Positions 6,753 to 6,935 of a DNA stretch of 64,000 nucleotides are shown here, piece after piece. The notes below the pieces were generated by a model. The model did not search any database, had not been told where the DNA came from, and saw only the letters and a program-made list of their open reading frames with translations. Origin of the DNA: Saprospiraceae bacterium (GTDB lineage: Bacteria; Bacteroidota; Bacteroidia; Chitinophagales; Saprospiraceae); assembly GCA_020628095.1 (NCBI GenBank), contig JAHDFP010000007.1:62001-126000 (forward strand), in the 5' to 3' direction. Every line of letters starts with the position of its first letter. The stretch's first letter is position 1. The position numbers were made by a program, and so were the translations under genes.

Positions 6753-6766
6753 ATATTATACCTTTG
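6735..6766 (+). promoter_or_regulatory. Putative promoter of the met leader
   Basis: TACCTTTG at 6759-6766 matches the -7 consensus TAnnTTTG. A TTG at 6735-6737, 21 bases upstream, could be the -33 element. Transcription would begin only a few bases before the leader ATG at 6776, so the leader peptide message would be nearly leaderless. Confidence 0.6.
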
Positions 6767-6775
6767 ACTAATCGA

Positions 6776-6877
6776 ATGAATAAAAGCATACATACATCTA
6801 TTTCTTCTTCACATGCATCCATGATGTGTTGCTGTATGATGATTTGTTGTATGACTGTCCGCAGGCAGATGCTTTGA
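6776..6877 (+). CDS. Met/Cys-rich leader peptide of the metY-metX locus
   Basis: A 33-codon open frame from ATG 6776 to TGA 6875-6877. Residues 16-26 read MMCCCMMICCM: with the Met start and one further Met near the end, 7 of 33 residues are Met and 5 are Cys, the product and a sulfur donor of the pathway encoded downstream. It sits between a promoter-like TACCTTTG and a terminator hairpin (6902-6935) ahead of metY. This is the layout of transcription attenuation by ribosome stalling, as in trp or his leaders: stalling at Met or Cys codons would favour an antiterminator. The CAG and CTTT around the last codons (6865-6875) can pair with AAAGCTG at 6904, which would break the terminator stem. 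The function is inference; the peptide composition and the hairpin are seen directly. Confidence 0.75.
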   Translation: MNKSIHTSISSSHASMMCCCMMICCMTVRRQML

Positions 6878-6901
6878 TTCGTATCGCATAAGAAATAAAT
6901 T

Positions 6902-6935
6902 AAAAGCTGAAGCCGCAGGGTTTCAGCTTTTTTTG
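6902..6935 (+). terminator. Attenuator terminator before metY
   Basis: Stem AAAGCTGAA / TTCAGCTTT (9 bp) with a short loop and a following run of T. It lies between the leader peptide stop (6877) and the metY start (6992), so it can only act as a conditional terminator of readthrough into metY. Confidence 0.82.

Follow-up and report, generated by a model that had tools for sequence, protein, structure and literature searches.

What controls metY and metX in a Saprospiraceae bacterium whose genome carries no SAM-I riboswitch? In the window, the 64,000-nucleotide stretch of DNA that was analysed, metY is preceded by a short frame rich in Met and Cys codons and by a terminator hairpin, an arrangement that the initial annotation read as amino-acid attenuation in response to charged Met-tRNA or Cys-tRNA. 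The element is very probably a ribosome-mediated transcription attenuator, which would read the charging of both tRNAs and control metYX. Its parts and their surroundings are:

6717 to 6751, + strand: terminator of ndk (the gene identified by NCBIfam), a 14-pair stem followed by a T tail.
6759 to 6766, + strand: TACCTTTG, which matches TAnnTTTG, the -7 promoter box of Bacteroidota; the leader ATG lies 9 nt further 3'.
6776 to 6877, + strand: leader peptide ORF of 33 amino acids, from the ATG at 6776 to the TGA ending at 6877; sequence MNKSIHTSISSSHASMMCCCMMICCMTVRRQML.
6821 to 6853, + strand: control codons MMCCCMMICCM, with Met or Cys in 10 of 12 codons.
6863 to 6876, + strand: region 2, the 5' strand of the putative antiterminator (AGGCAGATGCTTTG), which overlaps the leader stop.
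6902 to 6914, + strand: region 3, the 5' arm of the terminator, which would double as the 3' strand of the putative antiterminator.
6919 to 6934, + strand: region 4, the 3' arm of the terminator and its T tail.
6992 to 8322, + strand: metY, O-acetylhomoserine sulfhydrylase (NCBIfam TIGR01326, 568 bits), with a one-base deletion near 7100-7110.
8414 to 9430, + strand: metX, homoserine O-acetyltransferase (NCBIfam TIGR01392 on both halves), with an in-frame stop TGA at 8786-8788.

The 33-codon frame containing MMCCCMMICCM, as first described, is borne out, and it has the run of pathway-amino-acid codons within a short ORF that is characteristic of leader-peptide attenuators. Its density of Met and Cys was never reached by shuffling: among 40 block-shuffled copies of the window, read on both strands, none contained 8 or more Met and Cys codons per 12, as against 10 in the real leader, and 7 per 12 occurred with a mean of 0.075. 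The control codons end seven codons ahead of the leader stop, and a terminator then follows. The leader ORF is probably translated, and its 5' UTR would be very short. No NCBIfam family matched the leader peptides.

The TAnnTTTG box that had been placed ahead of the leader is present, and the same motif is modestly enriched upstream of leaders in relatives lacking SAM-I (30%, versus 12% in shuffles). Since ndk ends in its own terminator, the leader begins a separate transcription unit. The perfect hairpin described between the leader and metY was also confirmed. It occupies positions 6902-6931 and has 13 uninterrupted pairs, a GCAG loop and a T-rich tail after it, with a folding energy of -18.9 kcal/mol (shuffle z -5.0); the next gene on its 3' side is metY. 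The window thus has an intrinsic terminator between the leader and the first structural gene, as attenuators do.

A covariance model of the SAM-I riboswitch (RF00162), applied at its gathering score, found no match in the window or in the rest of the genome. Rfam searched against the window and the 5' UTR at a permissive E-value gave nothing credible, in agreement with the earlier statement that no S-box or SAM-II motif is recognizable at the locus. Could the 5' UTR nevertheless be an undescribed riboswitch for SAM or another metabolite, the ORF being incidental? The 5' UTR does fold more strongly than its shuffles (z -3.1), and metY is among the classic targets of riboswitches. However, no Rfam family comes near threshold, sequence conservation among close relatives is confined to the terminator, the run of codons and the region where the leader ends, and the frame is conserved by composition rather than by nucleotide sequence. 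A riboswitch of this kind is therefore regarded as very improbable.

The reading as an attenuator was examined further in 188 distinct genomes of the same class, each with a close metY homologue, by searching the 600 nt upstream of that gene. A leader was called where a short frame had at least five Met and Cys per 12 codons, at least two of them Cys, a threshold that lets in a few probable false leaders at its low end (for example L065 and L141). The initial annotation had made its reading depend on the Met and Cys codons being conserved in relatives, and they are: a Cys-rich leader, usually containing Met, lies within 600 nt upstream of metY in 109 of the 188 genomes. SAM-I was called with a covariance model made from seven Rfam hits; within the class the calls separate cleanly, the weakest scoring 44 bits with nothing below it, and the Rfam subset agrees. 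Leader and SAM-I occur together in 66 genomes, the leader only in 43, SAM-I only in 33 and neither in 46. A separate scan of 80 named loci, drawn from another collection but partly from the same genomes, gave the same picture, with about half carrying a Cys/Met leader. L230, a Saprospiraceae MAG and the nearest relative, has the leader ACCCMMCMCCCCM (...ACCCMMCMCCCCMTSLRQTL) and lacks SAM-I. In eight loci from the same phylum but outside the class, SAM-I was found in all (six clear, two weak) and the leader in none, so that the metY leader looks like an addition made within the class.

Several individual loci have features of their own. Two Met/Cys leaders stand in tandem before one metY at L337 (-610 and -358 from metY) and at L341 (-269 and -111). 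Thermophagus xiamenensis (L244) has a Met-only leader, TGMMMGRMSMA, lacking Cys and SAM-I and situated about 140-250 nt before metY; it ends shortly 5' of a possible long hairpin. A more distantly related metY-like gene has a Flavo-1 RNA (RF01705) upstream of it, at L023:1100-1184, with a score barely over the threshold.

The leaders have two architectures. Architecture A, to which the window belongs, lacks SAM-I and has Met and Cys codons, a terminator, and bases in the stop region that are complementary to the terminator 5' arm. In architecture B, SAM-I lies upstream, the Cys run reaches the very stop codon and the terminator is mostly absent. The distance from the end of the control codons to the stop has a median of 7 residues (21 nt) without SAM-I and 1 residue with it (p 7e-9). 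A terminator follows 68% of the SAM-less leaders, versus 3% of shuffles, and starts 22-50 nt after the leader stop in nearly all of these cases; about a third of the SAM-less leaders have no detectable terminator. After the leaders of SAM-I loci the corresponding values are 20% and 8%. A Cys leader directly 3' of SAM-I, with the Cys run abutting the stop and mostly no terminator, can be seen for example at L010, L015, L017, L055 and L058. Rho and translational coupling are candidates for the output of architecture B.

The amino acid composition of the leaders also differs with the presence of the riboswitch. Met accounts for 0.40 of the leader Met and Cys without SAM-I and 0.23 with it in the 188-genome survey, and for 0.40 and 0.21, respectively, in the tree set; Met counts are likewise lower with SAM-I (Mann-Whitney p 2e-7). 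When relatedness is accounted for by PGLS, with 97 leader loci on the metY tree, the Met fraction is 0.21 lower where SAM-I is present (p 2.6e-7), and the same contrast with full phylogenetic weight gives p 9e-5. The difference is found by family means (p 0.017) and inside the window's own family (p 2e-5). Loci of family f20 do not differ in Met between the SAM states, and an independent-pairs test on the metY tree agrees in direction, with too few supported pairs for significance. In family f75, the SAM-I loci L338-L340 have no leader, and the SAM-less loci L336, L337 and L220, together with L341 (from the same search, though not tabulated as f75), have Met+Cys leaders, which stand in tandem at two of these loci. 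Because the Met share is higher without SAM-I and this survives correction for relatedness, the Met codons seem, on the evidence of sequence comparison, to replace the SAM input and to stand in for a lost SAM sensor. The Met excess where SAM-I is missing supports the proposal of a leader that would sense Met as well as Cys, through the charging of the two tRNAs.

The composition also bears on whether the leader might answer to Cys only, its Met codons being neutral fillers or alternative starts. Both architectures have Cys runs, whereas Met is variable; architecture B and a second leader in the same genome (see below) are Cys only or nearly so; and AUG doubles as a start codon. That the Met excess is specific to SAM-less loci after phylogenetic correction argues against neutral fillers. 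It also holds when only Met past the first Cys pair is counted (0.21 without SAM-I versus 0.08 with SAM-I, p 8e-6), and there are leaders that are mostly Met (MKNNNKMCCMMMMCMCAPP, NMMRMMMCMCCCMR). A leader responding to Cys only is thus considered unlikely.

The initial annotation had paired CAG and CTTT at the leader end with AAAGCTG in the terminator stem. A pairing of this kind does exist between AGGCAGATGCTTTG (6863-6876) and AAAAGCTGAAGCC (6902-6914), in which GGC (6864-6866) pairs with GCC (6912-6914) and GCTTT (6871-6875) with AAAGC (6903-6907). The duplex of regions 2 and 3 has an energy of -9.0 kcal/mol, but taken alone it does not exceed its shuffles (p 0.15). The last 20 nt of each leader and up to 18 nt past its stop were then compared with the terminator 5' arm against a dinucleotide-shuffle null. 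Over 26 loci, complementarity between the two has a mean z of -1.57 (t-test p 4e-4, Wilcoxon p 0.001), these p values being somewhat optimistic because the 20 nt and 18 nt limits were picked after the first pairings had been seen. A first version of the test with cruder arms gave a mean z of -0.79, and by family means the result is borderline (p 0.06). The pairing persists as both partners change sequence, for instance as GAAAGGC/GCCTTTC, CCAAAAG/CTTTTGG and CCGGAAG/CTTCCGG, which is the covariation that had been suggested as a check on the antiterminator. A MAFFT alignment of nine relatives misaligned region 2, and no pair counts were drawn from it.

That the bases around the leader stop are complementary to the terminator arm also argues against the ORF encoding a functional metal- or thiol-binding micropeptide, with a terminator that just ends its transcript. 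Such a peptide would account for the Cys/Met-rich make-up, which is like that of metal-binding peptides, and for the promoter box that the ORF has to itself. However, in the loci seen the frame always precedes metY (or a RimK-like gene), there is little conservation outside the Cys/Met run and the spacing to the terminator is fixed. There is accordingly little doubt that the ORF is something other than a working micropeptide.

Amino-acid attenuation, as first proposed, is supported by the leaders found in relatives, by the terminators that follow them and by the pairing over the 26 loci; ribosome stalling and the sensing of tRNA are inferred, as is the sequence in which the evolutionary changes took place. 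The codon, stop and terminator geometry fits classical attenuation. With an ample supply of both charged tRNAs, the ribosome would reach the leader stop (6875-6877) and cover region 2, the terminator at 6902-6931 would form and transcription would end before metY. A shortage of Met or Cys would stall the ribosome inside MMCCCMMICCM. Given the usual footprint, even a ribosome held at the final control codon (A site at 6851) would have its front edge near 6863, where region 2 begins. Region 2, left free, could then pair with region 3, blocking the terminator and allowing metYX to be transcribed. In SAM-I relatives the control codons of the metY leader are nearly all Cys, and in the window's lineage, where the riboswitch is absent, the Met codons of the leader would provide the methionine input.

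The window's genome (G000) has a second leader of this type, whose control codons are Cys only. On contig C31, at about 5880-6100 of the + strand, lies the leader MNKTTIIFSCSFSATCCCLCCCLVY, ending SATCCCLCCCLVY (L229:1401-1620, L310:1280-1530). The antiterminator-like CTGGGAAG is situated just 3' of it and is followed by the terminator AAGCCTTCCCA...TGGGAGGGCTTTTTT and by the gene of a RimK-like ATP-grasp ligase. A RimK-like gene behind a Cys-run leader and a terminator of the same kind was also found in four other genomes, of which three belong to the same genus. The pairing statistic over the five RimK-like loci is weak (mean z -0.8). In genome G057, a RimK-like gene is situated downstream of metX, on the contig whose metY has a Met+Cys leader. 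The control codons of the two leaders in the one genome differ as would be expected if they were matched to the consumption of the downstream gene. Elsewhere in the genome, most poly-Cys hits fall within longer open frames or in other frames of these, such as one resembling ribosomal protein L7/L12; the leader on C31 is the exception.

The proposed mechanism is that of the classical leader-peptide attenuators. With the trp, his, leu, thr and ilv attenuators of Proteobacteria the window shares control codons in a short leader, a putative antiterminator overlapping the leader end, a terminator before the first biosynthetic gene and the geometry of codons, stop and terminator. It differs from them in its two sulphur amino acids, its regulatory Met run, its Bacteroidota host and its very short predicted 5' UTR. 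The uORFC-8-2 motif upstream of cysS in Rhodobacterales has Cys codons in a uORF and an intrinsic terminator, and ribosome-mediated attenuation has been predicted for it; unlike the window, it has two Cys codons, precedes cysS in another phylum and has neither Met nor a link to SAM-I (PMC8632094). Actinobacteria have poly-cysteine leader ORFs before cys genes (PMC1262725; Canestrari et al. 2020, as cited in PMC13236596). Architecture B is strikingly similar to these actinobacterial leaders, with Cys at the stop and mostly no terminator. Architecture A is unlike them in its intrinsic terminator, its putative antiterminator, its Met codons and the position of its codons about seven residues before the stop. 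The mycobacterial combination of a Cys run at the stop and no intrinsic terminator is accordingly found in architecture B loci and not in the window.

The SAM-I element before metY in other Bacteroidota controls the same gene, presumably with the same methionine/SAM end-product input. Unlike those loci, the window's locus and genome have no SAM-I, and Met codons seem to be its replacement. A T-box and a His leader have been exchanged across lineages as sensors of one signal for hisS (PMC2965389); that exchange swaps whole elements, whereas here codons appear to have been added to an existing leader. For F. psychrophilum, attenuation by leader peptides upstream of amino-acid operons is described in PMC9723704. 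The literature searched, with subscription journals mostly outside it, contained no ribosome-mediated attenuator using Met codons, no Cys/Met leader in Bacteroidota and no complementarity with SAM-I, which is weak evidence.

The operon behind the attenuator is interrupted in this assembly. The change of frame in metY is seen by tblastn with the nearest relative, and the alignment of metX passes through its single stop; both interruptions were missed in the first reading. Apart from metY and metX, the window's genes are for the most part long open frames, and the attenuator itself is intact. A close metY is absent from thirteen genomes of the same genus. The lesions are either assembly errors or signs of pathway loss under way in the genus, and in this genome the operon under the attenuator's control may no longer be functional.

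Taken across the class, the metY leader of Bacteroidia may be a modular two-input sensor, a view that we favour by a small degree. Cys would be read by Cys codons, and Met/SAM either by SAM-I, with a terminator-less leader, or by inserted Met codons, with a classical terminator. If so, the window represents the second state of this sensor and a ribosome-mediated attenuator that uses Met codons. Because translation also begins at AUG, Met makes an awkward control codon. Gut and marine habitats are rich in Bacteroidota, yet descriptions of how these bacteria control their sulphur amino acids are poor; the comparison points to an attenuator that occurs across the class in two architectures. An aptamer input has apparently been replaced by codons of a leader peptide, which would make the evolution of sensor exchange directly testable.
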